Of a DNA stretch of 64,000 nucleotides, positions 8,655-40,210 are shown one piece after another. Where the stretch lies: NCBI GenBank assembly GCA_023823795.1, contig CP085710.1:3188001-3252000 (forward strand). Reading direction: 5' to 3'. Both the position numbers and the translations under genes were made by a program. Each line of letters begins with the position of its first letter. The first letter of the stretch is position 1. The notes under the pieces were generated by a model that worked only from the letters and a program-made list of their open reading frames with translations, searched no databases and was not told the origin of the DNA. This DNA is from Bacillus sp. F19. GTDB lineage: Bacteria > Bacillota > Bacilli > Bacillales > Bacillaceae.

Positions 8655-8691
8655 CGTCTAATGCCTTGAATATAAGAAAGGAGCTGCATAG

Positions 8692-9555
8692 ATGAATAAC
8701 TCAAGCATATACCATATTTTTAACCGTGAAGATGCGATATTGCTTTCGGCCATGATCTATCAGTCATACCAACTCTTTGAAAAGGAACCACTTGTCTTGC
8801 CAAAAGGATATAGCCTTCGATATACCATACGAGCTCTTGCTGGTGTTGAGGAGCCGGAAGCAGAAGTATTTGGTTTTATTGCAGAGTCACAAGATAAAAT
8901 CATTGTAACTTTTAGAGGAACCCGAACATTTAAGGACAATGAGTCGGACCAAGATTTATATCAAGTACAATATCCTTTTGTTAGAAATGCAGGAAAAACC
9001 CATCGCGGATTTACATGTATTTATCAATCGACAAGAAATGAATTGATCAGAGAATTAACCAAGCTTTCTACAACAAAAAGACTATTTGTCGCAGGCCACA
9101 GTTTAGGAGGAGCTTTGGCCGTGTTAGCTGCTTTTGATATTGCGGTGAACACCCGATTTAAAAATCCTTTCGTGTATACGTATGGCAGTCCTCGTGTCGC
9201 AGACCCTGTCTTTGCTTCCCAGTTCAACCAAACGGTAAAGAATAGTATTCGTATTTTCAATGTCCATGACATTATTCCTACTTTGCCGGATCAAGCGTAT
9301 CCGCCTCCGTTTACAAAGAACGGATTATTCTATCGGCATGTAGACAAGAAGGTTTCGCTCTCTTTCCAGCTGAACAGTTTACCTGTTCGCAATCATGAGA
9401 TTGTCTGTTATTTTAAAAACCTCAGCCAACAGAATCCATCTTTTACCAAATCATTATGTGATGAAAACCCGGGATTTTGTCCCGATACGGAATTATGTGT
9501 TCCGTTTATAGGAATATGTGGTGAGAAGACATCCACAAACAATGACAAGAAGTAA
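8692..9555 (+). CDS. Class 3 lipase (alpha/beta hydrolase)
   Basis: A 287-residue paralogue of the preceding gene, 37 bases downstream with its own GAAAGGAG site, so likely one operon. It has a complete triad: AGHSLGGAL (Ser137), VHDIIPTLP (Asp193) and His216 in FYRHV, plus the TFRGT oxyanion region. There is no signal peptide. The end has the same four-Cys tail as the first copy. It probably hydrolyses acylglycerols or other esters; the natural substrate is unknown. Confidence 0.85.
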   Translation: MNNSSIYHIFNREDAILLSAMIYQSYQLFEKEPLVLPKGYSLRYTIRALAGVEEPEAEVFGFIAESQDKIIVTFRGTRTFKDNESDQDLYQVQYPFVRNAGKTHRGFTCIYQSTRNELIRELTKLSTTKRLFVAGHSLGGALAVLAAFDIAVNTRFKNPFVYTYGSPRVADPVFASQFNQTVKNSIRIFNVHDIIPTLPDQAYPPPFTKNGLFYRHVDKKVSLSFQLNSLPVRNHEIVCYFKNLSQQNPSFTKSLCDENPGFCPDTELCVPFIGICGEKTSTNNDKK

Positions 9556-9677
9556 TGGGATTGAGTAATTCATTGAATATTATTTTATGAAATATTTTAA
9601 TATCAAATATTTTAATAGGTTTAATTGTAGCTTTATCGACCTTCTTTATCTAATAGCTTGCATTAAAGTAGCAGCAT

Positions 9678-9706
9678 AAAAGGATCTTCGTTTGGAGATC
9701 CTTTCT
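9678..9706 (+). terminator. Terminator after the lipase pair, next to dif-like site A
   Basis: AAAGGATCT and AGATCCTTT arms are separated by eight bases and followed by a T-rich tail. A closely similar hairpin lies just left of dif-like sites D, E and F. Confidence 0.75.
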
Positions 9707-9708
9707 TT

Positions 9709-9737
9709 AATGCCTATAATCTTTCATTATGTTAACT
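9709..9737 (+). other. dif-like (XerC/XerD-type) site A
   Basis: Left arm aatgcctataa, a seven-base spacer, right arm ttatgttaact. The right arm differs by one base from the B. subtilis dif right arm, ttatgtaaact. The spacer is one base longer than the usual six. Confidence 0.5.
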
Positions 9738-9846
9738 AGTTTTGTATAGAGTATTCATGTGATACTTTGGAAATCTCGAGAGTTTAGTTTAAAAAAACAC
9801 CTATATAGTGGTTTTATTTTGCCCTCCTGTGAAGTCTGGGAGTGCT

Positions 9847-10056
9847 TTATTTATTCATGTCTTGGAATAGTCTTTTGAATGTATTGAATGTTTCCATATC
9901 CCATTCACAAAGCCATTTAATATATCTGGCTTCCTCCTCTGACAATTCCCTTCCAGTTCCTGCCTTGATTATGTTTTCCAATTACTTATACTTCACTTCA
10001 TCACTAAGCCTAATAATCATCTCTAACAGTCCTTTCTCCTTGAATACTTTCCTCAA
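9847..10056 (-). pseudogene. Small plasmid-type protein gene with an internal stop
   Basis: A single minus-strand frame of 70 codons is interrupted by TAA at 9982-9984. Before it the frame gives KVFKEKGLLEMIIRLSDEVKYK, and after it LENIIKAGTGRELSEEEARY and a C-terminal FNTFKRLFQDMNK. The two halves read as one helical protein. I recognise no named family. It lies between dif-like sites A and B. Confidence 0.5.
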
Positions 10057-10094
10057 TTTTAACAATTAAAAAGGAGGCAGAGCAGGATTTATTA

Positions 10095-10132
10095 AAAAAG
10101 AATGGGTACCTATTAGATACCCATTCCTTTTT
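10095..10132. terminator. Bidirectional terminator beside dif-like site B
   Basis: AAGAATGGGTA and TACCCATTC arms are flanked by A and T runs on both sides. It can end transcripts coming from the transglutaminase gene (minus strand) or from the left. Confidence 0.75.
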
Positions 10133-10134
10133 TG

Positions 10135-10162
10135 TTTGCCGATAATTGACTTTATGTCAACT
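10135..10162 (+). other. dif-like site B
   Basis: Left arm tttgccgataa, spacer ttgact (six bases), right arm ttatgtcaact. It lies 22 bases past the stop codon of the transglutaminase gene. Confidence 0.55.
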
Positions 10163-10184
10163 AAAAATGTATAGAATATACATT

Positions 10185-10919
10185 TCAGGTCATCTGATTG
10201 TACACCTTATTTAAATAGAATAGATATCGATCAAATGAAATCGAACTTTCGTTATGGTGAACGACGATATGCTGGTATTTATAAATCGAATAATCTCGTT
10301 GCGACATCGAAAATTTCGCCAGGTGTTTAAAAGACGGTCTTGTAACTAAATTTGTCAGATAGGCTGATTGATTTGCTCCCGGCTTTCTCCTTTTATTCAA
10401 AGCATGAATCATTTGTTCAGCTGTCTTTATTGCTAATCCATGTCCAAAATACGTACCATCTCCTAAAACAACAGCATTTTCTCCTCTCCACTGAGGGGTT
10501 CGCGGATTAAAGTCCGGATTGTTGAAATATACAACATCTCCAGGCAAAAAACGGTGAGAATAAATTGATCTTAATCCGAGGTCAGGATCAGCATGCCAGC
10601 TGTATAAATAGATGTTTTGAAATAATTGATTAAACAAGTATTCGCCAATAAGACTTAGGACCGCATGGTAATAAATAATGACCTTTCCCGTTGCACATTC
10701 AAACGCATACTGTGAACTGTTAATGTAAATATCTTGAATTGCGTCAGAAGGTTTTACACCTTGCCACAGCTGGAATCCACCGGTACTCGTTAAATGCCAG
10801 TATTGAGGATTACAACGGGATCTTGCAAATACTTCAAACCCCACATTACTTTGATTCATGGCTCTTGCGCTTACTATGATGTTTTTTCTTAACTTGCGTT
10901 CAAACGATGATATATACAT
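10185..10919 (-). CDS. tgl: Protein-glutamine gamma-glutamyltransferase (transglutaminase)
   Basis: A 244-residue homologue of B. subtilis Tgl, which cross-links spore coat proteins through Gln-Lys isopeptide bonds. The active-site regions are clear: YAFECATGKVIIYY gives Cys75, WRGENAVVLGDGTYFGHG gives Glu147 and His160. Compared with Tgl it lacks roughly 40 N-terminal residues and has about 45 extra C-terminal residues. GGAGGAGG before the ATG supports this start. It sits alone between dif-like sites B and C, so it may be a mobile paralogue and not the housekeeping tgl. Confidence 0.85.
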   Translation of the reverse strand: MYISSFERKLRKNIIVSARAMNQSNVGFEVFARSRCNPQYWHLTSTGGFQLWQGVKPSDAIQDIYINSSQYAFECATGKVIIYYHAVLSLIGEYLFNQLFQNIYLYSWHADPDLGLRSIYSHRFLPGDVVYFNNPDFNPRTPQWRGENAVVLGDGTYFGHGLAIKTAEQMIHALNKRRKPGANQSAYLTNLVTRPSFKHLAKFSMSQRDYSIYKYQHIVVHHNESSISFDRYLFYLNKVYNQMT

Positions 10920-12501: not shown

Positions 12502-13000
12502 CGATTTCAGGTTCAGCAAATTGAACTAATTCAGGGTGCTCCTTCATATCTTTTAAAACTTTTTCTCTTTGTTCTTTTGCAAGTTCTATATCTGTTTCTT
12601 CTAACCTTTCAATGTGATACGAATCTTGTCCAACAATAAGTTTCCATTCTTTTTCTTTTTGTTTTATCGGTAATGTATATGTAGCTAAATTCCCATTTTC
12701 AACAAGTTCGATAGTTGCTTCAAACTCAGTTTCACTTATTTTTTTAAGGTTTATTATTTTAGTATCAGTAATATGTTGTTTAGAAAAAAGGATTGAATAT
12801 TGTTCCTTTTGATTTTCTTTATCCGGAAACCTTAAATCATCAGCATAATTTATAGCTGCTGCAATATTTTTTGTTTCTATGGCCTCCAAATAATTATCTA
12901 CAATATTTTTAACCTGTTCATCCTTAGTTAAAGTCTCGTCAGCTGAACAACCAGCTAAAAGTACTAACACTAGAGTACTCAAAACTATAAACCTTCTCAT
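12491..13000 (-). CDS. Lipoprotein of unknown function
   Basis: A 169-residue protein starting at the ATG at 13000 (GAGGGG about ten bases upstream). The lipobox LVLLAGC directs lipid attachment on the outer face of the membrane. The mature part (DNYLEAIETKNIAAAINYADDLRF, later EKEWKLIVGQDSYHIERL) resembles NTF2-like/DUF4878-type lipoproteins. It is the only gene between dif-like sites D and E. Confidence 0.7.
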   Translation of the reverse strand: MRRFIVLSTLVLVLLAGCSADETLTKDEQVKNIVDNYLEAIETKNIAAAINYADDLRFPDKENQKEQYSILFSKQHITDTKIINLKKISETEFEATIELVENGNLATYTLPIKQKEKEWKLIVGQDSYHIERLEETDIELAKEQREKVLKDMKEHPELVQFAEPEIESP

Positions 13001-13087
13001 TTTTACCATTCCCCTCTATGGAAATATTTACATCTTAAATTGTACCACAAGAATTTTTTCTATCTCCGCTTTAGTTCAACAAGAAGC

Positions 13088-13120
13088 AAAAAAGGATCTC
13101 CAAATTTGGAAGATCCTTTT
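13088..13120. terminator. Terminator beside dif-like site E
   Basis: AAAAAGGATCT arms pair with AGATCCTTTTT around an AAATTTGGA-containing loop. Same design as the hairpins at 9678 and 27963. Confidence 0.75.
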
Positions 13121-13122
13121 TT

Positions 13123-13150
13123 ATTGCCTATAAAGTTAATTATGTTAACT
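13123..13150 (+). other. dif-like site E
   Basis: Left arm attgcctataa, spacer agttaa, right arm ttatgttaact. This is the best match to B. subtilis dif, with six-base spacing and one mismatch in the right arm. The flank tgtataaagtattcatgtgatactt is nearly repeated after site A. Confidence 0.6.
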
Positions 13151-13329
13151 AGATCTGTATAAAGTATTCATGTGATACTTTGACGTTTTGTTGAACTAAA
13201 GGGTAAGAAAACAATAATTGCTTTTGAAATAATTGGAATAAGATGGAGGTATTAGAGGTAATTTGTGGAATTATATATCTAGTAATAATCCACCATAGGA
13301 AATATTCGGAAAGGAGGTTAAAATCATAT

Positions 13330-13857
13330 ATGTTTAAAAGAATAATAGTTCTTTATTTTTTTAGTATTAGTGTATTAGCAGGATGTTCGGACTTTTCAAA
13401 TATTAAATCATCAGAGAAAAGTGCATCTATAAAGGAATCTGAAAAAAGTGAGTCTTTAAATGGTGAAGAGAAAATTAAGCTAAATGATTTTGAAAAAATT
13501 AATTATAGTCCAATAGATCTTAGTGAAGCTAGTGAATTTAAACTTCCAGATTTTGAATTAGAGAATGCTGAATGTATGATATTTGGACCTATCGATTTAA
13601 AAAAATCAGAGAAAATAACTCTTACATTTCAATTACAATCTAATGATTCTATAAACCATATGGGTGTAGGAATCATTAAAGACTTCATTCCAGATACTGA
13701 GTCAAATTATGAGATAGAAAAGATTAATTCAAAATCTATTGACAATGAATTAAAAGTTACATATACATCTCCAGTGGATTCTCAATTTTCAATTAGTATT
13801 TTAGGAACGATGGCAGATAATGTCGACGTTAAAAATGGAAAAATAATCAAGCATTAG
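13330..13857 (+). CDS. Lipoprotein of unknown function
   Basis: A 175-residue protein. The ATG at 13330 is chosen because it starts a classic signal peptide (MFKRIIVLYFF) with lipobox SVLAGC and has AAAGGAGG upstream, at a slightly long spacing. The mature part is Ser/Lys/Glu-rich near the lipid anchor, then beta-strand rich. It overlaps the ribosome binding region of the next gene, so the two are co-expressed. No family recognised. Confidence 0.65.
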   Translation: MFKRIIVLYFFSISVLAGCSDFSNIKSSEKSASIKESEKSESLNGEEKIKLNDFEKINYSPIDLSEASEFKLPDFELENAECMIFGPIDLKKSEKITLTFQLQSNDSINHMGVGIIKDFIPDTESNYEIEKINSKSIDNELKVTYTSPVDSQFSISILGTMADNVDVKNGKIIKH

Positions 13858-13869
13858 GGGAGATTTATC

Positions 13870-14424
13870 ATAAAGAATCTATTTTATTATTTAGTGAGTA
13901 TTACAATATTATTTATTTCGTTGGCTTGTCCTACTATATCTGCTGAAGCTTCAAAGTCTACTAACACTTTAGATGATGATTTAATTTCCATAGATACTAG
14001 TATTGTGCCAGATTCATATGAGTTAGATGTACTTGTTAATAAAAATGACCCCAAAAAAGAAGACATTATCATTTTTGTAGACGATCATGTTTATAAAATT
14101 GTGAAGGGTAAATTAGTTGAGACTTCACCTATCTTTATGCCATATGCAACAGATAGCAAATCTGTAACACTTGATAATGGTTCTTACACTTCATGGAGTA
14201 AATATGCTTCTCAAGGTACAACAGTGCACACAGGATCAACCGGCCCTGCGGAACTAAGAGAACATAAAATAATGAATAGCAGTAATACAATTCTAAGTTC
14301 TATTAAAGGTAGCGCAGCTAGCATAGGGTGTCAAAAAACAGTAACATCGACTGGTACATATAAGTTCACTATCGTAAACCTTAGCGCAGCAACTCAAACT
14401 TGGAATTGGACCATTACTTTTTAA
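13870..14424 (+). CDS. Secreted protein of unknown function, apparent ATA start
   Basis: The frame extends upstream of the GTG at 13894 to an ATA at 13870, seven bases after GGGGAG, which overlaps the previous stop. Read from there it is 184 residues with a good signal peptide (KNLFYYLVSITILFISLACPTISA). From the GTG the peptide would lose its basic N-region and ribosome binding site. The mature region has a YTSWSKYASQGTTVHTGSTG segment and a terminal WNWTITF strand. Either ATA is used or an ATG mutated. Family unknown. Confidence 0.55.
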   Translation: MKNLFYYLVSITILFISLACPTISAEASKSTNTLDDDLISIDTSIVPDSYELDVLVNKNDPKKEDIIIFVDDHVYKIVKGKLVETSPIFMPYATDSKSVTLDNGSYTSWSKYASQGTTVHTGSTGPAELREHKIMNSSNTILSSIKGSAASIGCQKTVTSTGTYKFTIVNLSAATQTWNWTITF

Positions 14425-14550
14425 CAGCAAAGTTGAATTATAAGGAATAATAAGGCTCTTACCTTAAGAAAGAGCGCAATAAGCAGTATAAAAGGATCTT
14501 CGACTGGTCTTACCCCCGTCAAGTAGACAATGAATAAAAGGGTACACTAA

Positions 14551-15443
14551 TTAAGCAGCCGTAGCCCTAAATTCAGTAGGGCTGAGGTTGTTTAATTTCT
14601 TTTGAAAACGTTTATTATTATAAAACTTGATATATTTTCTTACTGCTGTTGTTACTTCTTTTGAAGTCTTGAATCGAGAACGGTAAAAACATTCTGTTTT
14701 AAAGTGGCTAAAAAAACTCTCTATACAAGCATTATCAAAACAATTTCCCTTTCGGGACATACTTACGTTTATATTGCTTCTTTTTAATAGTTGGTTATAT
14801 CTTATTGAGGTGTACTGAAATCCTTGATCGCTATGCAATAGGAGTCCTTTGACATCTCTTTTTTTTATGGCTGATTTTAAAGTGTCAGTTACTAGTTTAA
14901 GATCATTTCTTTCACTTATCTTATACGAAACAACCTCATTATTGTAAAGGTCCAATATTGTAGATAAATAGATTTTCTTTCCATTAAATTTGAGACAGGT
15001 TATATCTGTCACCCATTTTTCATTTGGGCGTGTAGCTGAAAATTCTCTGTTTAAATAGTTATCAGAGACGACACATTTTTCTTTACGTCCAAAGTGCCTC
15101 CACTTCTTTTTTCGTATCTTTGCTTGAATTCCATATCTCTTCATTAAACGATAAATTCTTTTATGATTAACTCTTAGACTGTAGGTCTTTTTTAACCAAG
15201 TTTTGATTCTTGGATAACCATAACTCCAATTAATATCAGGATCTTGTTGGCATTTAATAATTTTTGTTACAATTGATTGATCTTCCAGCTCTTTTTTTGA
15301 AGGGTTATTTTGGCGTTTAAACCATTTATAATAACCACTCTTTGAAACACCTGCTATTTTACATAAGGTGATGATACTAAATTGTTTTTTAAGTTCATGG
15401 ATTATTTTATATACTAACGATTTTTCTTTTCTTTTAACATCCC
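14551..15443 (-). CDS. IS3-family transposase OrfB (expressed by frameshift)
   Basis: The frame is open from about 15443 through 14551 although its first internal ATG is at 15144. The upstream part encodes the usual HTH_21 region (KKQFSIITLCKIAGVSKSGYYKWF...NWSYGYPRIKTWLKK). The core has WVTDITCL (Asp), LLHSDQGFQY (Asp) and NCFDNACIESFFSHFK (Glu). There is no start codon of its own, consistent with -1 frameshifting from orfA at an A-rich site near 15425. Confidence 0.75.
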
Positions 15444-15605
15444 CCTTTTCGCAGCTAAGAGCTTTTTTAGAAAGGCATTTTCTGCTTCTAATCGATTTAT
15501 TTTTTCTGCCTCACTTTCATAATATTTGTTAGGTCTACCTTTAAACTGGCTACGTGATGTTCCTCTTTTTTCCTCTAAGCCTTGGACTCCTTCACTTTTA
15601 TAATC
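15414..15605 (-). pseudogene. C-terminal fragment of IS3-family OrfA
   Basis: About 63 codons with DYKSEGVQGLEEKRG and the coiled-coil EAEKINRLEAENAFLKKLLAAKRG are typical of IS150-type OrfA ends. The two N-terminal HTH domains are absent. The open frame extends to 15734, but that extension is the wrong frame of another gene. Confidence 0.7.
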
Positions 15606-15709
15606 GATCGGGCAACGGATAACTCCTCTTTTAATTGACCTATATGGAAAAAAAGATACCCGATTAGAAGAATACAAACCGCATAGCCAATGATGATAGA
15701 TCGTTTCAT
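15575..15709 (-). pseudogene. Truncated small membrane protein gene downstream of tcpE-like gene
   Basis: The ATG at 15709 has AAAGGAG upstream and begins 14 bases after the TcpE-like stop. It encodes one membrane helix (KRSIIIGYAVCILLIGYLFF) and then HIGQLKEELSVARSII. From about 15605 it reads into the IS remnant and stops after a few foreign residues. It was probably a conjugation-operon gene cut by the IS. Confidence 0.5.
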
Positions 15710-15723
15710 CTCTCTCTCCTTTC

Positions 15724-16164
15724 TTATAGTCCAAGAATTAATTTAGGATGTTCAACCATGTACTCTTCTTCTTGGGTCATTTCGTAATACACGGGCTCTA
15801 ATTGAACGGTTTCGTTGGAGTAAAGAACTACTTCGTCATTGCAATACCGCTTTTTAGGGAATTTTATTGTAATCAAGTAAACTCCTAAATCCCACAAATA
15901 GTTATGAATCTTCTTTCCATCCTTCCTTAACTTATACAGAAGACCTGAGACCGCAAACGGAATGCCGATGTACAGGAAAACCGTTAAGCCTGGTATCAAG
16001 GAACCTATCCCATTGAAAAAGGTTCGGTATCTAAACATGATCGCTAAGATGAGAAGCGCAATGACTACTCTTGCAAGGGGTACACCAAACGGCAAGCTGA
16101 ATTTTCCAAGTCGATACAAAGTAACAGGTTCTTCGAAAACTCCTTTGTAGTTATAGGTTTTCAT
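15724..16164 (-). CDS. TcpE-family conjugation protein (ICEBs1 ConD-like)
   Basis: A 146-residue protein starting at ATG 16164 (GGGAGG upstream). It opens with MKTYNYKGVFEEPVTLYRLGKF and has two membrane helices followed by WDLGVYLITIKFPKKRYCNDE. This is the TcpE pattern known from ICEBs1 ConD and clostridial TcpE, inner-membrane parts of Gram-positive conjugation channels. Other channel genes (TcpC, the VirB4-like ATPase, hydrolase) are not here. So this is a relic of an integrative or plasmid conjugation system. Confidence 0.7.
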   Translation of the reverse strand: MKTYNYKGVFEEPVTLYRLGKFSLPFGVPLARVVIALLILAIMFRYRTFFNGIGSLIPGLTVFLYIGIPFAVSGLLYKLRKDGKKIHNYLWDLGVYLITIKFPKKRYCNDEVVLYSNETVQLEPVYYEMTQEEEYMVEHPKLILGL

Positions 16165-22674: not shown

Positions 22675-23079
22675 GGATTACGTTGGCAAATCGAAATTTT
22701 ATTTAAAACGTGGAAATCATTCTTTCAAATTCATCAGTGTAAAAAGATAAAACCAGAAAGATGGGAGTGCCATTTGTATGGACAATTGATTGCCATTCTA
22801 CTCTGTTCTTCTATCATGTTTCAAATGCGGCAATTACTTCTTATGAAAAAGAAACGAGAACTGAGTGAGTATAAGGCCATATATATGATTAAAGATTATT
22901 TTCTTCTTCTTTTCCAAGCTATACAGAAAGACACCCAAGAGCTATCAAAGGTTCTACTTCGCCTGTTCAACCTCCTACAGCAAAACGGGCGAAAATCTCA
23001 TCGATATGAGAAGAAAACAGTCTTTGATATATTAGGTGTCGTTTACAATTGTACCATGTCTGATAATCAAGCGGCTTAA
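22675..23079 (+). pseudogene. C-terminal tail of an IS4-family transposase
   Basis: The frame carries [16 protein letters not shown], the YREK-like segment with the catalytic Glu of IS4-family transposases. It continues through [31 protein letters not shown] and the end [11 protein letters not shown]. The N-terminal two thirds and the left end are absent. Confidence 0.75.
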
Positions 23080-23191
23080 TTCAAAAAAGGAAACCCGTTA
23101 GGGTTTATTTCGTATGCAAATCTTTAAAGCATCTACATATAGACTTTCGAAAAAAAGAAACAATCTTGCTTATCATTGACGTTACATGAGC

Positions 23192-23760
23192 TTAGCTTGA
23201 TAGCGATGCATTCACGATAATTCCATTTTCAATTAACTCTCTGGACATACCAATCGTCATTGTATTTACTGCTCCTTTAGTCGATGCATAGTGAATGCTT
23301 TCTCCAGCCCCTCCAATACGAGCAGCAGCCGAAGATACATTAATGATTTTACCGTTTTTCTTTGGAATCATATGTCTTAATCGGCTTGCGAGCATAAAAG
23401 AACACTATTAACATTTAATCTAAACGTATCTTCCCATAGCTCTTCACTCATATCCATAAATGTGCTTTGCCGGATACCACCGCCAGCATTATTAACCAAC
23501 ACATCAACCGTACCAAATGAAGAAAGAGCTGCTTCAACCATTGAGTTCACTTCTTCTTTTTTCATCACATCAGCTTGAATGGCAATAGCATTTTCGCCTT
23601 TTTCTTGAATACGTTTGACAGCCTCCATAGCACCTTTCTCGTTTGAATGATAATTGATAATTACCTTTGCTCCTTTAGATGTCACTAATTCAGCTGTGGC
23701 AAGTCCAATACCTGAACTTGCTCCTGTAATGAGAATAACTTTCCCTGATAAGTCCTTCAT
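23192..23760 (-). pseudogene. Short-chain dehydrogenase/reductase, frameshifted and truncated
   Basis: The 5' frame (23760-23377) encodes a classical SDR Rossmann start with TGASSGIG, DVLVNNAGGG and RLNVNSVLLC. The continuation, with KIINVSSAAARIGG and the YASTKG active-site Tyr/Lys, is in another frame (23395-23192). It ends at GIIVNASLSS, where RVNxVxPG and about 50 residues should follow. One frameshift near 23385 and loss of the 3' end leave it inactive. Such enzymes reduce ketones or 3-oxoacyl substrates with NAD(P)H. Confidence 0.8.
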
Positions 23761-27055: not shown

Positions 27056-27943
27056 TTGTTTACGGTTACAGTAGTTACAGCTTTTTATGATTACCTGTAC
27101 CGTAATGGAGAGTTAGAACAGGACGTTCGTGACAGGCTTATAAAAGAAGTATTTACTGGGGGACGGAGACGGTACAAGAGCTTCCTCCATCATGTAAATG
27201 CAGGTAAGCCTGTAAACAAAAGGGGAACTTGTTTTTTATTAGTCTGGTCTTCAGGTGGTATTGTGTTTGACACTTTGCGAACAGCTGCTGTACTTGGAAT
27301 ACCAGGCTTGCCACCTGTCGTAGATTGGCCAGGGTTCGCAACCAGAACGATTAGTCTCATAGCTGCCATACTGCTTGCTACAGCGACCATCTCTTTTCAA
27401 CGTATATCCCGAGGGGCATGTATTGTATGTGGTCAAGGTCCTTCGGTGAAAATCCAACCTGACCATAAATGGTTCGGCTATGCTGCATTTATACTAACTT
27501 TTCCATATCCTTTATTAAAACTTTATTGGTCCTTCGGTGGAACCCTAGGAGGTGGCCAAAATTTCAATCAACATTCTGCTTATGGAGAAATAATAGTATT
27601 TGGCGTTTGTGCACTACTTTGTCTTGCTCTTGTACAAAAATGGGGGCGTATTTTTCCTAGCTGGGTACCATTTATTTCTGGGAAAAAAGTTCCTCGATTC
27701 ATTCTAATCACCGGAGGTTGGGTTGCTGCATCCATGACAGTTTCAATGGGATTTTTGGCAATATTGGGATCTCTTATGGAGGTATTAGGTCTTGCCGATG
27801 GGCCAATGAATTTCGATGACACAGGTTTGCTAGTATCTATGGTATATGGAGGATGGTTGTTGCTGGGTATAGCGATTACTGGAGCTACTTTGAAATATCA
27901 AAAGCAAACCAGGGGTAAATGTTCAAAGTGTGGAAAAGTTTAA
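27056..27943 (+). CDS. Chimera: tyrosine-recombinase fragment fused to a membrane protein
   Basis: The first 55 residues (VVTAFYDYLYRNGELEQDVRDRL, RRRYKSFLHHVNAGKPVNK) are the core-binding region of a tyrosine site-specific integrase. From about residue 56 the protein changes to six or so membrane helices plus two CxxC knuckles (RGACIVCGQ and GKCSKCGKV), typical of an unrelated conserved membrane protein. The TTG start at 27056 has no clear ribosome binding site. A recombination joined two genes in frame and removed the integrase catalytic domain and probably the membrane protein's start. Confidence 0.65.
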   Translation: MFTVTVVTAFYDYLYRNGELEQDVRDRLIKEVFTGGRRRYKSFLHHVNAGKPVNKRGTCFLLVWSSGGIVFDTLRTAAVLGIPGLPPVVDWPGFATRTISLIAAILLATATISFQRISRGACIVCGQGPSVKIQPDHKWFGYAAFILTFPYPLLKLYWSFGGTLGGGQNFNQHSAYGEIIVFGVCALLCLALVQKWGRIFPSWVPFISGKKVPRFILITGGWVAASMTVSMGFLAILGSLMEVLGLADGPMNFDDTGLLVSMVYGGWLLLGIAITGATLKYQKQTRGKCSKCGKV

Positions 27944-27962
27944 ATAATCTTTATAGACACAT

Positions 27963-27993
27963 TAAAAAAGGATCTTTAATCAAAGATCCTTTT
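27963..27993. terminator. Terminator beside dif-like site F
   Basis: AAAAAAGGATCTTT and AAAGATCCTTTTTT arms around a TAATC loop. It serves the gene ending at 27943 and, on the other strand, the one ending at 28018. Confidence 0.8.
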
Positions 27994-27995
27994 TT

Positions 27996-28023
27996 AATGC
28001 CGATAAGTTCTATTATGTTAACT
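27996..28023 (+). other. dif-like site F overlapping a stop codon
   Basis: Left arm aatgccgataa, spacer gttcta, right arm ttatgttaact. The stop codon of the minus-strand gene (28018-28020) lies in the right arm, as at site D. Confidence 0.6.
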
Positions 28024-28206
28024 AGATTTGTATAGGGTATGCATTAGGATCTTTACATCCTGAATAAATACTCTTTCTTTTGTAGATACATCTAATTTAG
28101 CTTGTTTTACAATTTCTTTTTCATCTTCAACAGATTGTATAATCACAGACCCATGAACTGGTTTATTCTCTTTCCATACAGAATAGTTTACTTCGAACGT
28201 TTTCAA
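28018..28206 (-). CDS. Small hypothetical protein ending in dif-like site F
   Basis: 62 residues from a TTG at 28206 preceded by GAGGAGAGAA. The reading from 28296 has no ribosome binding site. The sequence (KTFEVNYSVWKENKPVHGSV, VEDEKEIVKQAKLD, VFIQDVKILMHTLYKSS) looks like a small alpha/beta protein and resembles no named family I can state with confidence. Confidence 0.5.
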   Translation of the reverse strand: MKTFEVNYSVWKENKPVHGSVIIQSVEDEKEIVKQAKLDVSTKERVFIQDVKILMHTLYKSS

Positions 28207-28296: not shown

Positions 28297-28778
28297 AAAA
28301 TTAGGATTGCAAAAACTAGGGCGAATTGCTATTTAATATAAGAGTGAGAGGAACAAGCTTTGTGATGTTCAAAAAAACCTTATATATCAATAGTTTGAAG
28401 ATTTTTCATAGTTGGTAATTTTGCCAACTATGAAATCATAAAAAAAGAGCCACTTTTAAGGCTTGGTGACAGGGTTGCTGCTATGAACCGCAAAGTAACC
28501 CTGTCACCAAGCCTTTATGAGTAGTTATGCTGTTAAATTAAACTAGAGGTGATTCAGACGAGTTAACAAACAAGCAACCAACATTCTCGTCCTCAAGGTT
28601 GCTTGTTTGTTGAAGAAATGAAGATTGGAGGTAACCTTGTATGCATAGAGATAGGTAGCCTTCTATGCATCAGTTACATGGCTTGTTCTAATGTATTCGA
28701 TGCAGTGTTAAGGGGTGTTAGTTTATTCGTCCATTTTGAATACCAACATTCAATCTGGCTTTCTTGGAAGGTGATGTA
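28297..28778. other. Gene-free stretch with a palindromic element
   Basis: Besides the 56-bp palindrome at 28459 it contains a pair of related runs near 28630-28665 (ggtaaccttgtatgcatag and ggtagccttctatgcatc). No gene is supported. Confidence 0.45.
28459..28514. repeat. 56-bp palindromic element, copy 1
   Basis: 18-base arms (AGGCTTGGTGACAGGGTT and its perfect complement) flank a 20-base centre, gctgctatgaaccgcaaagt. It occurs again inverted at 29247-29302, and as separated half-copies at 11193 and 12246. Confidence 0.8.
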
Positions 28779-28928
28779 ATGGAGAACAAATGCACTTATT
28801 GTTGGCAGAAATCAGATGATTTGAAGCCATTACCACTAGAACTCAAAGGTGATGACAGAGAAAGGTTTTGCCCGAAGTGCTACCCATCAGTATTGAAGGC
28901 TGTAAAAAACTTGCCCTGGAATAAGTAG
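28779..28928 (+). CDS. Small zinc-ribbon-like protein
   Basis: 49 residues with GGAAGGTG ahead of the ATG. Two knuckles, ENKCTYCWQ and ERFCPKCYP, are 28 residues apart and would bind one zinc ion. This resembles small plasmid- and phage-borne Cys-pair proteins of unknown role. Confidence 0.55.
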   Translation: MENKCTYCWQKSDDLKPLPLELKGDDRERFCPKCYPSVLKAVKNLPWNK

Positions 28929-29089
28929 GGTACCAATCGTGCTGCTAAATTATCCTTTAGCACGGTAAAGTTGTGAAGTGTCATTTTAGCAGCAGGTTTT
29001 GCTAATCTCAAATAGCCCTAAAAAATTTTTCCGCTAGTTTTTCGGGATCTTTTCAGGCACAAAAAAAAGAAGACAAGGAATAAGTTTGA

Positions 29090-29278
29090 TTACTTAAACC
29101 CTGCCTTATTTAGATGGTTGGTAACTGTTTGTCGAGAAACACCAAATGAATTAGCAATCTTTGTCTTTCTAAAACCCTGTTCAAACAGTGAAATCATTTT
29201 CGTTATTTCAACGTCAGTAATTCTCTTTTTCTTAGGTTTAGCTAATAGGCTTGGTGACAGGGTTACTTTGCGGTTCAT
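29090..29278 (-). CDS. Resolvase-type helix-turn-helix peptide starting inside the palindrome
   Basis: 62 residues. The C-terminal 43 (RITDVEITKMISLFEQGFRK, IANSFGVSRQTVTNHLNKAG) form an HTH like the DNA-binding end of serine recombinases or IS regulators. The ATG lies in the centre of the 56-bp palindrome, so the first nine codons (MNRKVTLSP) come from the repeat. It is either a small regulator mobilised by the repeat or a recombinase tail given a new start. Confidence 0.45.
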   Translation of the reverse strand: MNRKVTLSPSLLAKPKKKRITDVEITKMISLFEQGFRKTKIANSFGVSRQTVTNHLNKAGFK

Positions 29279-29302
29279 AGCAGCAACCCTGTCACCAGGC
29301 CT
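29247..29302. repeat. 56-bp palindromic element, copy 2 (inverted)
   Basis: Same arms as 28459-28514 with one change in the outer right arm and the centre in the opposite orientation. The two copies bracket about 730 bp carrying the zinc-ribbon and HTH genes. Confidence 0.8.
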
Positions 29303-29305
29303 AAT

Positions 29306-30144
29306 TAAAACAAAAGGCGGACATGGAATGAGGAGAAATACTAAAACTTGCTGGACTAGTATGTGGCGTTGTTTTCAAACACCCTCTATAACGTTCCGTT
29401 ATTTCAAAAATTATGTGAAAAATCGCTCGACTTGGCATGAATAACGAATCGTATGTCTGTAAGCATCACCGACACCTAACATAAAACGGAGCATCACCCT
29501 TAGAAAGGCGATATTGTACAGGTAGTCGCTAGATTCTCCTTTTTTACATCGTTTTAACACATGCTCCGTAATGGACCCGACATCATCTCATCTGGACTTA
29601 TGAAGATATCGCGATTGTATGATCTTCATTCGAAATGTAAATACTGTAACTGGTACGAGGCTTACTTTGTTAAAGATCTATTTCAATGAAAGAGGGTGAC
29701 AATCTTGAATAGAATTCTTAATCTCCAAAAAATCAATTTTGCAGATGAAAGAGGCGATAATAAACCGGTCAGCTGTACTTCCTGTGACAGCTATAGCTGT
29801 AACAAAAAGCCTGAATGATTTAAAAGCACATACGTAATGAAGTAAGCAGAAAGGAGCCTAAGCCCTTTCTGCTTGTATCCTTTACTGGAATCCGTATTGA
29901 CGTTACGGAGGAGTTCTAAGGAGGTTCAGACATATGAATGAAAACGCAATAAACGTATGGTTCAACGTTTTTATGACAAACAATAAGGTGCCTCTTCAAG
30001 GCTGGAAAATACATATTTCGTTTATTCCGCAGCATTGCCAAGACGTCCTTCGCAAGGTTGCTTCTATTTGTATTCAGCATCAGGTTGCGTTTAAATTTCT
30101 ACTGGATACCCGATTAGTGACATTATCGGGAGGTAAGATGTGGT
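29306..30144 (+). repeat. Tandem duplication, upstream copy of the lanthipeptide unit
   Basis: This segment matches 30345-31325 at high identity. It includes the end of a remnant frame, about 350 bp of leader DNA, a precursor gene and the first part of lanKC. Compared with the downstream copy it lacks 111 bp inside lanKC and stops matching at the KMWS codons. Confidence 0.85.
29705..29818 (+). CDS. Class III lanthipeptide precursor, copy 1
   Basis: 37 residues from TTG, four bases after GAGGGTGACAATC. The leader contains ILNLQKINFADE, matching the leader-helix LQ motif recognised by class III synthetases. The core ends SCTSCDSYSCNKKPE. In it Ser-x2-Ser-x2-Cys (SCDSYSC) is the labionin/lanthionine motif. 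The core differs from copy 2 while the leader is nearly identical, so they should give two products of one synthetase. No protease site is obvious. Confidence 0.8.
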   Translation: MNRILNLQKINFADERGDNKPVSCTSCDSYSCNKKPE

Positions 30145-30158
30145 CGTCGTTTTTTTAA
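29934..30158 (+). pseudogene. Truncated LanKC stub from the duplication
   Basis: 74 codons matching the start of the LanKC at 31003, with the same ribosome binding site (AAGGAGG). Residues 7-43 are missing (MNENA joins directly to NVWFNVF) and the match ends after LSGGKMWS, with a stop three codons later. It retains only part of the lyase-like domain and cannot act as a synthetase. Confidence 0.85.
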
Positions 30159-30167
30159 TAAGGATCG

Positions 30168-30200
30168 AAAAAAACGCTTGGTTTATCAAGCGTTTTATAT
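30168..30200 (+). terminator. Terminator after the LanKC stub
   Basis: AAAACGCTTG and CAAGCGTTTT arms with a short loop. It would separate the copy 1 precursor transcript from copy 2. Confidence 0.75.
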
Positions 30201-30240
30201 GCTTAAATCTGTTGTGATTTAACAAAGTTCTACTGATAGC

Positions 30241-30378
30241 ATATTAATAGGTCTCGATGGTGCCAAAGAAGTGAGAAACTCTGGTTTTCAAAATATAGAG
30301 GTTTTAACAGAAGATACAGTTTTCGAGGGTATCCAACTAATCAAAACAAAAGGCGAACATGGAGAGGAGAAATATTAA
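30241..30378 (+). pseudogene. C-terminal remnant of an unidentified protein
   Basis: The frame reads ILIGLDGAKEVRNSGFQNIE and VLTEDTVFEGIQLIKTKGE to TAA with no start. The end of this frame (IKTKG...HG) is also found at 29306, so the duplication boundary lies inside this former gene. Confidence 0.4.
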
Positions 30379-31325
30379 AACTTGCTGAACTAGTATGTGA
30401 CGTTGTTTTCAAACACCCTCTATAACGTTCCGCTATTTCACAAATTTATGTGTAAAATCGCTCGATTTGGCATGAATAACGAATCGTATGTATGTAAGCA
30501 TCACCGACACCTAACATGAAACGGAGCATCACCCTTAGAAAGGCGATATTCCTTTTTGCGATACTGTACAGGCAGTCGCCCAATCCTCCCTTTATACATC
30601 GATTGACACATACTCCACAATGGACCCGACATCATCTCATCTGGACTTATGAAGATATCGCGATTGTATGATTTTCTTTTGAAATGTAAATACTGTAACT
30701 CGTACAAGGCGTGGTTAGTTAAAGGTCTTTTTTCAACGAAAGGGGGTGACGATCTTGAATAGAATTCTTAATCTCCAAAAAATCAATTTTGCAGATGAAA
30801 AAGGTAGAGGTGATGTGGCAGAACACCCCCACCCCCAAAGCTGTACTTCCTGCACCAGCCATAGCTGTAACAGGCCTGAATGATTTAAAAGCACATACGT
30901 AATGAAATAAGCAGAAAGGAGCCTAAGCCCTTTCTGCTTGTATCCTTTACTGGAATCCGTATTGACGTGACGTAAGGAAGAGTTTTAAGGAGGTTCAGAC
31001 ATATGAATGAAAACGCAATGCGTATCATCCCATCGGAGTGGTACGAATCATTCGATCGTTACTTGCCTGATGAAGATTTGCTCAAGATTGTGCGTCCGAT
31101 TCTTCCCGCCAATTGGACAACACGACGTACAAACGTATGGTTCAACGTTTTTATGACTGACAATAAGATGCCTCTTCAAGGCTGGAAAATACATATTTCG
31201 TCTATTCCGCAGCATTGCCAAGACGTCCTTCGCAAGGTTGCTTCTATTTGTATTCAGCATCAGATTGAATTTAAATTTCTAATGGATACCCAATTAGTGA
31301 CATTATCGGGAGGTAAGATGTGGTC
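30345..31325 (+). repeat. Tandem duplication, downstream copy of the lanthipeptide unit
   Basis: Partner of 29306-30144. It has an extra 16 bases near 30550 and the full start of lanKC. Confidence 0.85.
30755..30883 (+). CDS. Class III lanthipeptide precursor, copy 2
   Basis: 42 residues from TTG after AAAGGGGGTGAC. The leader (NRILNLQKINFADEKG) is almost the same as copy 1. A six-residue extension rich in His and Pro precedes the core SCTSCTSHSCNRPE. Two Ser-x2-Ser registers overlap, one ending in SCTSHSC. It lies 119 bases upstream of lanKC and is presumably co-transcribed with it. Confidence 0.8.
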   Translation: MNRILNLQKINFADEKGRGDVAEHPHPQSCTSCTSHSCNRPE

Positions 31326-33675
31326 GCGGGAGGCGGGAGGAAAATTTATTACCATTTACCCTGCCGACATGATGCAATTTAGAGAGGTGATTGAGCAGCT
31401 TTACTTGTCTCTAAAAGATTATCAAGGCCCCCATATTCTATCAGATAAAAGGTATAAAGATTCGCATACGGTTTATTACCGGTACGGAGGCATCCGTGGC
31501 TACAATCTATTAACACCTGAAGGTGACAAAAGATACTATCTCCTCTCGCCAGACGGAGAACATCATCCCGATCTAAGAATGCCTTACTTTACTCCTCCTT
31601 CGTGGGTAGATGATCCTTTTCCTCAGGATATAGAAGAAGGCGGAGAGGAGTTATTGCTCAATAATGGGAGATACCGAGTGGATAACTCCTTGAATTTTTC
31701 GATGATCGGAGGTGTGTATCTGGCAACGGATTTAACAAACGACACAAAAGTTGTCATTAAAGAAGCAAGACCGTTTACCCAAGTCAACGCAGATGGAACG
31801 GATGCAACAAGTCGACTGGCGAAGGAATTCGACATCTTAAAATTGCTTGCAAACAGTGGAGTTACGCCTAAACCTATCGATTTATTTCAAGACTGGGAGC
31901 ATACTTTTCTCGTCGAGGAGTTTATCGAAGGTATGATGCTTAACAAATTTATAGTCACTCATATTCCTTGGAAATATCGTTCGCCTTCAGATGATGTGAG
32001 GAAAGCGTACCTAGAGAAGCTATTTAAAATCTGGGCCAATATTGCATGTTGTCTTGCTGCATGTCACGCCAAAAACCTAGTTTATTGTGATCTATCTTTA
32101 ACAAATGTGATTGTACAGGCTAATAACGACTACGCAGTTAAATTAATTGATTTCGAAGCAGGTTATCGCAAAGGGATAGATACGCCATCTAAGCTGATTA
32201 CCCCTGGCTTCAATAGTCCTACTTCAGGGCAAGACCCTGGGTTTGAAGACGATATCTACTCGCTTGGATCCATTATGCTGGCTACACTGCTTCCAATTAA
32301 TAGGCTTTTAGAACTGGATCCATCGAAAACCGATTTATTTATCCAGTCGCTCGGAGCTGATGTCGGTTTACCGGAAGCGATGCTCCAACTGATTAAACAA
32401 TGCCTGAGCCACGAAGCAACTAAAAGACCTACAGCCGAGCAGGTAGTTAATCGTATTAAAGCGATCCAAATTGAGATTGAACCAGTGCCTCCGACCGTTA
32501 TTTATCCAAAAGAAGAATTGCTGAATAAGGTTGGAAAGGCAGCTCAGTATATTATACATAGTGCAGACTATTTCAGAAGTGATCGCTTATACCCTGCGGA
32601 CCCTAGAGTATTTCGTTACCACCCGCTTAACATCGCTTATGGCGCTTCTGGTGTAGCCTATGCTCTACATAAACTGACAGGTTCTGTGCCGAAAACAACT
32701 ATTCATTGGATGCTGTCATGCTCAGCAACAACCGATAATTGTCCCCCTGGATTGTACACAGGATTTTCCGGGATTTCTTGGGTCATGCAGGAGTTGGGTT
32801 TACATGAAGTTGCTTTGCATATGATACAGAAGGCTTATGAGCATCCGTTGCTATGGACTTCGGCTAGCCTCTACTCGGGTTGTTCCGGCTTTGGGTTATC
32901 CTGCCTTAACTTGTATCTCGCAACCAAAGATAAACGCTGGTTAAATGTTGCGATTGAAGTTGGAGATCATATTATCCAAACGAAGCAGGATAATTCTGAC
33001 GGAAGCTATTGGCTGGATTATGACGGGGTTGCTTGGAACGGTCTAACCCGAGGCTCAAGCGGAGTTGCGCTTTACCTGCTTTATTTAAGTATGGTAACAG
33101 GAGAAGGTAAATACTTGGAGGTTGGAGAATCGGCACTGGCGTTCGACCTAGCACGTCTCAAAGAGAACGAGCCCGGACATGTTAGTGTTCCTAGAGGGCA
33201 AGCCTTTAACCCAGAAGGTGTTCTGTCCCATTATTGGTACGACGGATCGGCTGGCGTTGCGACTGTGCTTCTTCGTTATTGGGCATACACCAAAAAAACA
33301 GCATATATGGATGTGCTAGAAAAACTCGCTAAAGATACCTGCAAAAAATATACCAGCTTCCCTTCGTTATTCGTAGGACTATCTGGACTAGGCAACTTTC
33401 TGCTAGATTTCTATCAGTTTACAGATGATCCGCAATATCTGCAAGAGGCGTACCGTGCAGCTAACGGCGTGATGTTGTTTACGATAGAAAAACCAATGGG
33501 CATCGCGTTTCCAGGTGAGCAGCTCAGTCGAATTTCAACAGATTATGCGACTGGCTCGGCTGGAATCGCTCTCTTTTTACACCGTCTGGCTCACCACGAT
33601 CAGAAGATGAACAATTTCAATTTTACGCTGGATAAGCTGTTTCAGAATTACAATCATTTCATTAACGCCAACTAG
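31003..33675 (+). CDS. lanKC: Class III lanthionine synthetase LanKC
   Basis: 890 residues, the expected LanKC length. Residues 1-205 are the phospho-Ser/Thr lyase-like domain. Residues 225-490 are the kinase: VVIKEAR (Lys253), Glu275, YCDLSLTN (Asp363, Asn368) and LIDFE (Asp383). Residues 505-885 are the LanC-like cyclase, with GASGVAYALHKL and GLYTGFSGISW repeats; where class I/II enzymes have WCYG this one has HYWYDGSAG, so zinc ligands are absent, the mark of class III. It phosphorylates and eliminates Ser/Thr in the precursors and forms lanthionine or labionin rings. AAGGAGG precedes the ATG. No transporter or peptidase gene follows. Confidence 0.9.
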   Translation: MNENAMRIIPSEWYESFDRYLPDEDLLKIVRPILPANWTTRRTNVWFNVFMTDNKMPLQGWKIHISSIPQHCQDVLRKVASICIQHQIEFKFLMDTQLVTLSGGKMWSREAGGKFITIYPADMMQFREVIEQLYLSLKDYQGPHILSDKRYKDSHTVYYRYGGIRGYNLLTPEGDKRYYLLSPDGEHHPDLRMPYFTPPSWVDDPFPQDIEEGGEELLLNNGRYRVDNSLNFSMIGGVYLATDLTNDTKVVIKEARPFTQVNADGTDATSRLAKEFDILKLLANSGVTPKPIDLFQDWEHTFLVEEFIEGMMLNKFIVTHIPWKYRSPSDDVRKAYLEKLFKIWANIACCLAACHAKNLVYCDLSLTNVIVQANNDYAVKLIDFEAGYRKGIDTPSKLITPGFNSPTSGQDPGFEDDIYSLGSIMLATLLPINRLLELDPSKTDLFIQSLGADVGLPEAMLQLIKQCLSHEATKRPTAEQVVNRIKAIQIEIEPVPPTVIYPKEELLNKVGKAAQYIIHSADYFRSDRLYPADPRVFRYHPLNIAYGASGVAYALHKLTGSVPKTTIHWMLSCSATTDNCPPGLYTGFSGISWVMQELGLHEVALHMIQKAYEHPLLWTSASLYSGCSGFGLSCLNLYLATKDKRWLNVAIEVGDHIIQTKQDNSDGSYWLDYDGVAWNGLTRGSSGVALYLLYLSMVTGEGKYLEVGESALAFDLARLKENEPGHVSVPRGQAFNPEGVLSHYWYDGSAGVATVLLRYWAYTKKTAYMDVLEKLAKDTCKKYTSFPSLFVGLSGLGNFLLDFYQFTDDPQYLQEAYRAANGVMLFTIEKPMGIAFPGEQLSRISTDYATGSAGIALFLHRLAHHDQKMNNFNFTLDKLFQNYNHFINAN

Positions 33676-33678
33676 CAT

Positions 33679-33718
33679 AAATCCCTCGACGCTCTCACCT
33701 AAGCGCCGAGGGATTTTC
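33679..33718 (+). terminator. Terminator of the lanKC transcript
   Basis: AAATCCCTCG and CGAGGGATTTT arms directly after the lanKC stop. Confidence 0.85.
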
Positions 33719-34160
33719 CTGGCGGTTACGATGGCCCGTCGTTGTCGATTGCTAAACACAGAGCAGGAACAATAATAAGTGCTATATTTACAAGTGAGCT
33801 ATACTATCACAATACCGGTTAATGGAAGTTCTTTGCTTATTTAATAATAGGGCGCGATTGTAGAACAAAGAGCAGTCGCTTTTTTACTGGTAAGATCCGA
33901 AATGTTCTAAAAATGATTGATGTAGATAATCAAGAAACCCAGCATCTTCACATGAGAAGGATGTGCAAAATAACTCCTAAAGTGACAAGTACCTCTTGGA
34001 CGTCCAAAAGGTACTCAACCTCGTTTTGTTACCATAACTAGGGATTATCGGTAGTTCATTGGTGTTGATCGTCCCAATACAATCAAGAACAATTTTAAAA
34101 TAGATGAGGTTCCATTACTATTGATACCCGGTAGTTCAACAAAGACATTTCATAAAATGC
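33719..34160. other. Gene-free stretch
   Basis: No gene. It contains the last copy of the dispersed motif near 33848 (ggcgcgattgtagaaca). Otherwise it is decayed sequence. Confidence 0.45.
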
Positions 34161-39400: not shown

Positions 39401-40210
39401 TTATTCTAAAAACCTTACAAACTCTCGATTGAATTTCTCAAGCTCGTCATAAAACAGACCGTGTCCGCTGTACTTAAAGGGAATAATTTCTGAATCTTTT
39501 ATCCCCTCATTCATAAGCTTTGCAAAAATAAACGGACATATCAGGTCTTTCATTCCGTGGAAAATAGCGGTGGTTACGTTAATTTTCCCTAAATCCAAAC
39601 GGAGATCCTCATCCCGGAGCGATACAGCAGTCAGAGCTGTACCATGGCCAGAACCTTCAAGACCAAGATTCTGGAACCAGTTTTTAAAGCTGTCGGTAAG
39701 ATATTTTGAAAAGAAAATTTGACCAAAACCAGATAGCATTTCCGGACGGTCCTTAAAGGTTTGGTCTATCAATTTGTTTACCTCTGATTTGGACATGCCG
39801 TAAGGATAATCAGGCCGCTTTGTGAATGACGGCGCTGCTGCCCCAAATAGGGCAAGCTTTGAAACTTGGTGTTCTCCATGTCTGGCCATATAGCGAATAG
39901 CAATCGCCCCGCCCATTGAAAAGCCGGCTAATGTGATTTCTTTAAGCTGAAGGGAATCTATCACGGCCCGGACATCATCTGCGAGTCTGTCATAGGAATA
40001 GCCGGTCCACGGCCTGTCTGATTTCCCAAAACCCCGAATGTCCATTGCAATGCACCTGAATCCAAGACGCGGCAGCTGGTTCACCTGATACTCAAACATT
40101 TTATGATTAACGGGCCAGCCATGAATAAAAAAGATGACACGGCCATCTTTTGGGCCAAGGTCCTCTACAAATAAATTGACATCTTCCTCTGCTTTTATAT
40201 AATACCCCAC
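39401..40210 (-). CDS. Alpha/beta-fold hydrolase
   Basis: 269 residues from GTG with GGGGGAG upstream. Classical hydrolase elements are HGWPVNHKMF (oxyanion), GFSMGGAIA (nucleophile Ser), FHGMKDLICPF (acid region) and SGHGLFYDEL (His). It is closest in look to haloperoxidase/esterase-type enzymes. Third gene of a likely TIR-40947-hydrolase operon (gaps of 27 and 50 bases). Confidence 0.8.
   Translation of the reverse strand: MGYYIKAEEDVNLFVEDLGPKDGRVIFFIHGWPVNHKMFEYQVNQLPRLGFRCIAMDIRGFGKSDRPWTGYSYDRLADDVRAVIDSLQLKEITLAGFSMGGAIAIRYMARHGEHQVSKLALFGAAAPSFTKRPDYPYGMSKSEVNKLIDQTFKDRPEMLSGFGQIFFSKYLTDSFKNWFQNLGLEGSGHGTALTAVSLRDEDLRLDLGKINVTTAIFHGMKDLICPFIFAKLMNEGIKDSEIIPFKYSGHGLFYDELEKFNREFVRFLE

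Follow-up and report, generated by a model that had tools for sequence, protein, structure and literature searches.

We describe a locus in the genome of Bacillus sp. F19 that very probably directs the biosynthesis of class III lanthipeptides from two precursors by a single lanthionine synthetase, LanKC. The locus (29306-33718) lies in a stretch of 64,000 nucleotides (GenBank assembly GCA_023823795.1, contig CP085710.1, positions 3,188,001 to 3,252,000 of the forward strand), which is referred to below as the window and whose numbering is used throughout. An initial annotation, made from the sequence alone, had proposed a class III locus with one intact LanKC and two precursor genes starting with TTG, whose leaders share ILNLQ; the score of the synthetase against the class III model NF038151 and the recovery of both TTG frames, each encoding RILNLQKI, bear this out. 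The genes of the proposed pathway are the following.

31003 to 33675, forward strand: lanKC, an intact class III lanthionine synthetase of 890 amino acids with lyase, kinase and cyclase parts (NF038151, Pfam domains, match to 8sao_B)
29705 to 29818, forward strand: lanA1, TTG start, 37 amino acids, core SCTSCDSYSC (open frame; core recurs in relatives)
30755 to 30883, forward strand: lanA2, TTG start, 42 amino acids, core SCTSCTSHSC (open frame)

In the proposed pathway, the single LanKC would bind the ILNLQ part in the leader of either precursor, by analogy with the characterised synthetase ThurKC, phosphorylate and then eliminate Ser/Thr residues of the core, and close thioether rings (lanthionine or labionin) without zinc on a compact S-x2-S-C-x3-S-C core. 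The leader would most likely be cut by YfmF/YfmH, a pair of general M16 peptidases whose genes lie elsewhere on the chromosome. The second precursor would have come from a tandem duplication of the upstream region, lanA and the 5' part of lanKC, after which one lanKC copy would have decayed and both precursor frames would have remained open. The genes, domains, catalytic residues, duplication, M16 pair and recurrence of leader and core are seen in the sequence; we infer expression, leader binding, the ring pattern, the identity of the protease, the export route and bioactivity. The system is of an ordinary, familiar kind, its precursors are real and conserved, and its cores are uncharacterised and little studied; the features specific to the locus are the duplication and the missing exporter.

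The synthetase scores 843 bits against NF038151 (cut-off 575, E 2.6e-253) and 527 bits against the class IV model, under its cut-off of 650, and these scores rule out a class IV LanL identity. One chain carries the lyase, Ser/Thr kinase and LanC-like cyclase domains of a class III lanthionine synthetase, in the Pfam order RamC_N (31-208), Pkinase (235-483) and LANC_like (543-867), and its nearest solved structures by sequence are LanKC chains (8sao_B at 5.5e-84). The kinase residues K253, E275, D363, N368 and D383 and the lyase residue K114 are all present, and a DFE motif occupies residues 383-385. Cys-His is the zinc-ligand motif of zinc cyclases. The zinc-ligand positions of the window enzyme hold F790-V791 and Y746, in agreement with the initial description of a complete LanKC without zinc ligands, a feature that separates class III from class IV LanL.

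These positions were mapped via residues that PMC10604976 names for ThurKC, the numbering being shifted by three as derived from the DFE motif. DFE is reported in characterised labionin-forming LanKCs (PMC10604976); it discriminates little, because its Glu is found in 41 and its Phe in 21 of the 43 LanKCs that we compared. ThurKC from Bacillus thuringiensis (PMC10604976; structures 8sao, 8sap and 8sam) is also zinc-independent, and the window LanKC has equivalents of its lyase lysines and of DFE, while the Asp proposed as general base in ThurKC is V791 here. Unlike that of the window enzyme, the gene of ThurKC shares its cluster with seven precursors that are nearly identical and with a methyltransferase. 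A two-component zinc protease is reported for the leader in the ThurKC pathway, in parallel with the pair proposed here.

Both precursors are short peptides adjoining lanKC with the L-x-LQ leader of class III precursors, and their leaders are almost the same (MNRILNLQKINFADE[RK]G). By reading, the TTG codons at 29705 and 30755 are the better starts, because the alternative GTG codons (29696 and 30746) fall within the ribosome-binding stretch and related peptides start a few residues ahead of L-x-LQ. Each core contains S-x2-S-x5-C as well as S-x2-S-x2-C, both of the class III form S-x2-S-x(n)-C; the former is the one retained throughout L027, L018 and L006, the related loci described below. A combined leader and core pattern, [ILVM]L-x-LQ ... 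S-x2-S-C-x3-S-C, which was devised after the peptides had been seen, matches the window at lanA1 and lanA2 and nowhere else; in 200 mononucleotide shuffles of the window it was found once, while the core part alone gave 21 matches and is thus not rare.

The same leader and core recur beside related LanKCs. The locus of Paenibacillus sp. GSMTC-2017 (L027) encodes three precursors, ending in ISVSSCDSHSC, VSVSSCDHHSC and VSISSCDLHSCYS, and one precursor each was seen in the stretches searched of L018, from the same class (SISSCDVQSC), and L006, from the same order (SISSCDTGSCMRH). All seven peptides, including the window pair, contain S-x2-S-C-x3-S-C. The Ser-x2-Ser-x2-Cys register named in the initial annotation does occur in both window cores and in one of the three L027 cores, but in neither L006 nor L018, and it is not the conserved one: four of the seven peptides have H, L, V or T in place of its middle Ser (core position 7), so that the conserved positions are 1, 4, 5, 9 and 10. 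A lack of precursor frames near related LanKCs, which the same annotation gave as grounds for abandoning its proposal, was not seen, as L027, L018 and L006 all have such frames and the core.

When 1.86 million bases were scanned, a total that counts overlapping loci, the leader and core pattern gave 21 matches, corresponding to 10 distinct peptides in seven loci, the window among them. Outside the LanKC group of the window defined by the tree below, the core pattern was found in L008 (SASSCFAGSC), L029 (SCTSCSMNSC) and L093, from Actinobaculum (SWSSCSIWSC); the L029 LanKC and L093 were not in the tree. L-x-LQ is present in all 17 aligned peptides, which were hand-picked from candidate lists with other candidates omitted. 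The precursor model NF038160 gave weak matches in four of 397 sampled genomes of the order (own genome included) and none above its cut-off; among the other three, one is the L008 locus and two (L141 and L143) are stretches without a leader and core frame. It is doubtful, in our view, that S-x2-S-C-x3-S-C, extended by the additional Cys of SCTSC (C-x2-C-x4-C), marks a separate class III product family, spread over several LanKC lineages and more than one phylum, in which the rings would depart from the spacing usual for labionin and thiols left over would serve as a disulfide or as metal ligands.

That one LanKC accompanies two precursors with differing cores, and that L027 carries three precursors, could also indicate that the two peptides act jointly as a two-component product. 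This is improbable, since the window pair arose as paralogues by tandem duplication and have similar cores, only one precursor was seen in the searched stretches of either L018 or L006, and shared clusters are common, only 57% of class III precursors being the sole one in their cluster (PMC7268733).

The duplication is directly visible in the alignment of unit 29301-30146 with 30337-31326, which are 93.3% identical (56 mismatches in 830 ungapped positions) and include the following features.

29301 to 29704, forward strand: upstream region of precursor 1, start of copy 1 (aligns to 30337-30754, 81-95% identical by block)
29934 to 30158, forward strand: truncated, internally deleted lanKC copy of 74 amino acids (RamC_N 8.9e-17; NF038151 positions 41-106)
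30337 to 30754, forward strand: region ahead of precursor 2, within copy 2 (alignment to copy 1)

The alignment reveals a tandem duplication that left two copies of the upstream region and of lanA and one of lanKC. The initial annotation was right that both precursors exist and missed both the duplication and the dead lanKC stub. The remnant protein is 85% identical to the intact LanKC, has lost 37 codons after MNENA and ceases to be homologous at about residue 108. Because lanA1 is followed only by this 74-residue remnant, one LanKC serves both precursors. Changes affect 8 of 61 remnant codons, 7 nonsynonymously and 1 synonymously, the pattern expected of a dead copy; the leaders differ in two of 17 codons, one change being nonsynonymous and the other synonymous, which is not enough for a selection test. 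The decayed duplicate exemplifies one route by which multi-precursor class III loci arise. Directly left of copy 2, positions 30235-30336 hold the end of a frame of no identified kind that is lacking in copy 1, and 30261-30418 has an 80% match in the sibling genome G050.

At E 1e-60 or better, a LanKC was found in 3 of 81 genomes of the host's family, the window's own counted, and in none of seven same-genus siblings; the family's other two LanKCs are 31 and 32% identical and occur with arrays of a different precursor. In wider samples, which overlap and both include the own genome, it was present in 15 of 397 genomes of the order and 12 of 398 of the class. A single-protein scan of genome contigs gave no LanKC relative; an alignment scan did, with the best 80 of at least 573 relatives kept. 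Among these 80, the top relative is L027 (61% identity), and others are Ktedonobacteraceae L028 (50%), Tengunoibacter L050 (47%) and Chloroflexi AL-N1 L029 (46%); identity is 53% in L018 and 47% in L006.

In the LanKC tree, the window enzyme groups with both L027 LanKCs, L018, L006, L028 and L050 at 100/100 support, and L028 and L050 are members from Chloroflexota. The tree has 43 rows from 42 fetched loci and the window, L029 being dropped (no long frame with the N-terminal motif) and L027 giving two rows; rows begin at the first Met of the stop-to-stop frame, and some are short. Loci L011, L013-L017, L021-L024 and L056-L106 are outside it. The locus adds a member to a cross-phylum LanKC group whose cores fall near, yet below, curated precursor families.

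The right flank from 34519 onward is conserved in four sibling genomes, and DNA left of 34519 was not found in the stretches fetched from these four, which extend 4.8 to 13 kb past that point. A search of the genus with 20 kb of DNA returned scattered, mainly repeat matches (up to 37 candidate places scored per genome) and no sibling match over the LanKC gene. Taken with the cross-phylum tree, these comparisons suggest that the locus was probably gained horizontally. The locus DNA had no match in the plasmid collection; the LanKC protein gave 97 records there, the best at 39% identity (Deinococcus).

The stretch 28459-29302 is an element whose inverted repeats measure 56 bases and have arms that are palindromes themselves. 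It contains a resolvase-type helix-turn-helix fragment at 29093-29278, and its end at 29302 meets copy 1 of the duplication, whose left boundary is 29301. Further DNA repeated elsewhere in the genome is located at 22678-23208, 27222-28044 and 33831-34056, on either side of the locus.

Several results weigh against a working class III pathway with these two precursors, and they concern precursor scores, core distribution, export, leader removal and transcription signals. Leader and core partly match NCBIfam NF038160 (lanthi_III_c) and NF038154 (lanthi_III_a), and both peptides stay under the curated cut-offs: lanA1 scores 24.8 and 21.6 bits and lanA2 19.4 and 19.9 bits, against cut-offs of 27 and 22, respectively. 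Such scores, together with short frames and TTG starts, would suit chance open frames beside LanKC; this explanation is hardly credible, given the matching leader and core beside related LanKCs and the ribosome-binding stretch that, by reading, is present ahead of the frames. In addition, the peptides picked from the two Ktedonobacteria loci in the LanKC group are without the core pattern.

As regards export, no exporter was recognised with Pfam among 20 flanking frames (18.6-43.6 kb), of which 7 matched no family, so that one of another type is possible. An adjacent transporter gene, such as a class III locus with export has, was thus not recognised, and no MFS remnant was detected in the window by tblastn with the MFS proteins of four relatives (best E 0.13). 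We read the flanks of ten relatives (L006, L007, L008, L009, L018, L019, L027, L028, L029 and L050), and a transporter-type gene lies directly downstream of LanKC in eight of them, unlike in the window. It is MFS-type in six (L006, L007, L008, L018, L027 and L029), four of which were scanned and match TIGR00900 under its cut-off, L006 and L007 being assigned by reading, and ABC-type, also by reading, in L009 and L028; in L050 the ABC-type gene lies upstream, with nothing of the kind immediately following LanKC, and L019 has neither within the short stretch covered. Elsewhere in the host genome there are ten MFS homologues, the best at 27% identity. At 27056-27940, a frame with no Pfam match reads like a membrane protein of no recognised kind.

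The export function was possibly lost at the locus, and an extension of this idea is a relict cluster: after horizontal acquisition and loss of the exporter, it would have been duplicated in part and would no longer yield a secreted product, LanKC and the precursors being intact only because the decay is recent. We regard this as a tentative alternative and somewhat unlikely. It would account for the absence of a recognised counterpart to the MFS-type gene of six relatives and the ABC-type gene of two more, for the decayed lanKC copy, in which nonsynonymous changes outnumber synonymous ones 7 to 1 over 61 codons, and for the inverted-repeat element that adjoins the duplication on its left and the repeated DNA flanking the locus on both sides. 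Yet LanKC is full length with every catalytic residue checked present, both precursor frames are intact despite 56 of 830 aligned bases differing between the duplicates, and export might use one of the ten MFS homologues.

For leader removal in a functional class III locus, which we prefer to the relict explanation, no protease was recognised in the same 20 frames. The initial annotation had remarked that neither a transporter nor a leader protease is encoded nearby, which holds for the scanned frames; the missing protease is nevertheless ordinary for class III, where a clustered one is usually missing (PMC8960859, PMC10885120), rather than special to this locus. An alpha/beta hydrolase with a secondary S33 match (39404-40210) sits in DNA also found in the LanKC-free siblings G046 and G049. 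Of three M16 places in the genome, two are adjacent, at C1:2148343-2150909, some 1.07 Mb away from the lanthipeptide genes, and match YfmF (607 bits) and YfmH (705 bits). In other Bacillota, homologous M16 pairs, even when encoded outside the cluster, remove the bacinapeptin and paenithopeptin leaders, and B. subtilis YmfF/YmfH cut leaders weakly, with about 4% of the dedicated pair's efficiency (PMC8960859). By analogy, YfmF/YfmH is a plausible leader protease here; the assignment is weak, because M16 pairs failed on a precursor outside group Pre_24 (PMC8960859) and the QAAD leader site is in neither lanA1 nor lanA2. Alternatives from the M1, S8 and S9 families have been described (PMC10885120).

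With regard to transcription, two stem-loops separate the precursor genes from what follows them.

29844 to 29874 (ends approximate), forward strand: stem-loop separating precursor 1 from the lanKC remnant (z-score -3.9 for the fold of 29818-29940)
30909 to 30939, forward strand: stem-loop between precursor 2 and lanKC (terminator-like on the reverse strand only)

A hairpin between the precursor stop and the lanKC start was found in both window copies and in all three relatives folded (L027, L018 and L006), with unrelated sequences; the shuffle control for the fold covered window copy 1. The lanA-lanKC hairpin may serve in attenuation. A T-run on the forward strand follows neither window hairpin, and the promoter scan gave 5 sites against a mean of 5.4 in shuffles, thus no excess. 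Two microRNA matches in Rfam, far under the gathering scores, were counted as chance.

Compared with described systems, paenithopeptin (ptt) and bacinapeptin (bcn) clusters likewise combine LanKC with several short precursors, and in bcn the M16 pair is encoded outside the cluster, as in the window genome (PMC8960859). Their core type, S-(x)2-S-(x)2-5-C, is fitted by S1-x2-S4-x5-C10 in the window, a comparison by core type, not by alignment. Unlike ptt and bcn, the window locus is without a recognised methyltransferase or transporter, and its S-x2-S-C-x3-S-C core has three Cys. The closest locus found is that of L027, which shares the leader and core type; unlike the window, it carries an MFS-type gene alongside and a further, divergent LanKC.

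In the open-access papers searched on class III lanthipeptides (judged by titles and the opening of abstracts), we found no product of this core type, as the initial annotation had suspected in not recognising the cores, and no open-access paper naming SCTSC together with lanthipeptide; supplementary lists, such as that of PMC7268733, may already catalogue the peptides. A histidinobutyrine (noursin-type) product, prompted by the core His of lanA2, was judged unlikely: the lanA1 core has no His, and the NorKC subgroup is described from Streptomyces and Saccharothrix (PMC10206099). What determines lanthionine versus labionin in zinc-free cyclases is named as an open question in PMC10604976, and very short cores with at least three Ser/Thr and two or three Cys are handy substrates for this choice.

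Other LanKC loci provided several minor observations. The L029 LanKC (8001-10688) has no single long N-terminal frame and is open from 8370, being a pseudogene or an assembly error. The Deinococcus plasmids NC_017792.1 and NZ_CP097152.1 encode LanKCs 36-39% identical to that of the window, above the other LanKCs of the host's family. The second LanKC of L027 (4394-7105, reverse strand), near the three precursors and the intact LanKC, reads Asn for the kinase catalytic Asp (VCCNLSITN) and is possibly, by its sequence, a kinase-dead partner. Finally, the region downstream of the L027 lanthipeptide locus (12728-15959) encodes, by reading, an SbnA/SbnB-like pair (2,3-diaminopropionate) and an adenylate-forming enzyme.

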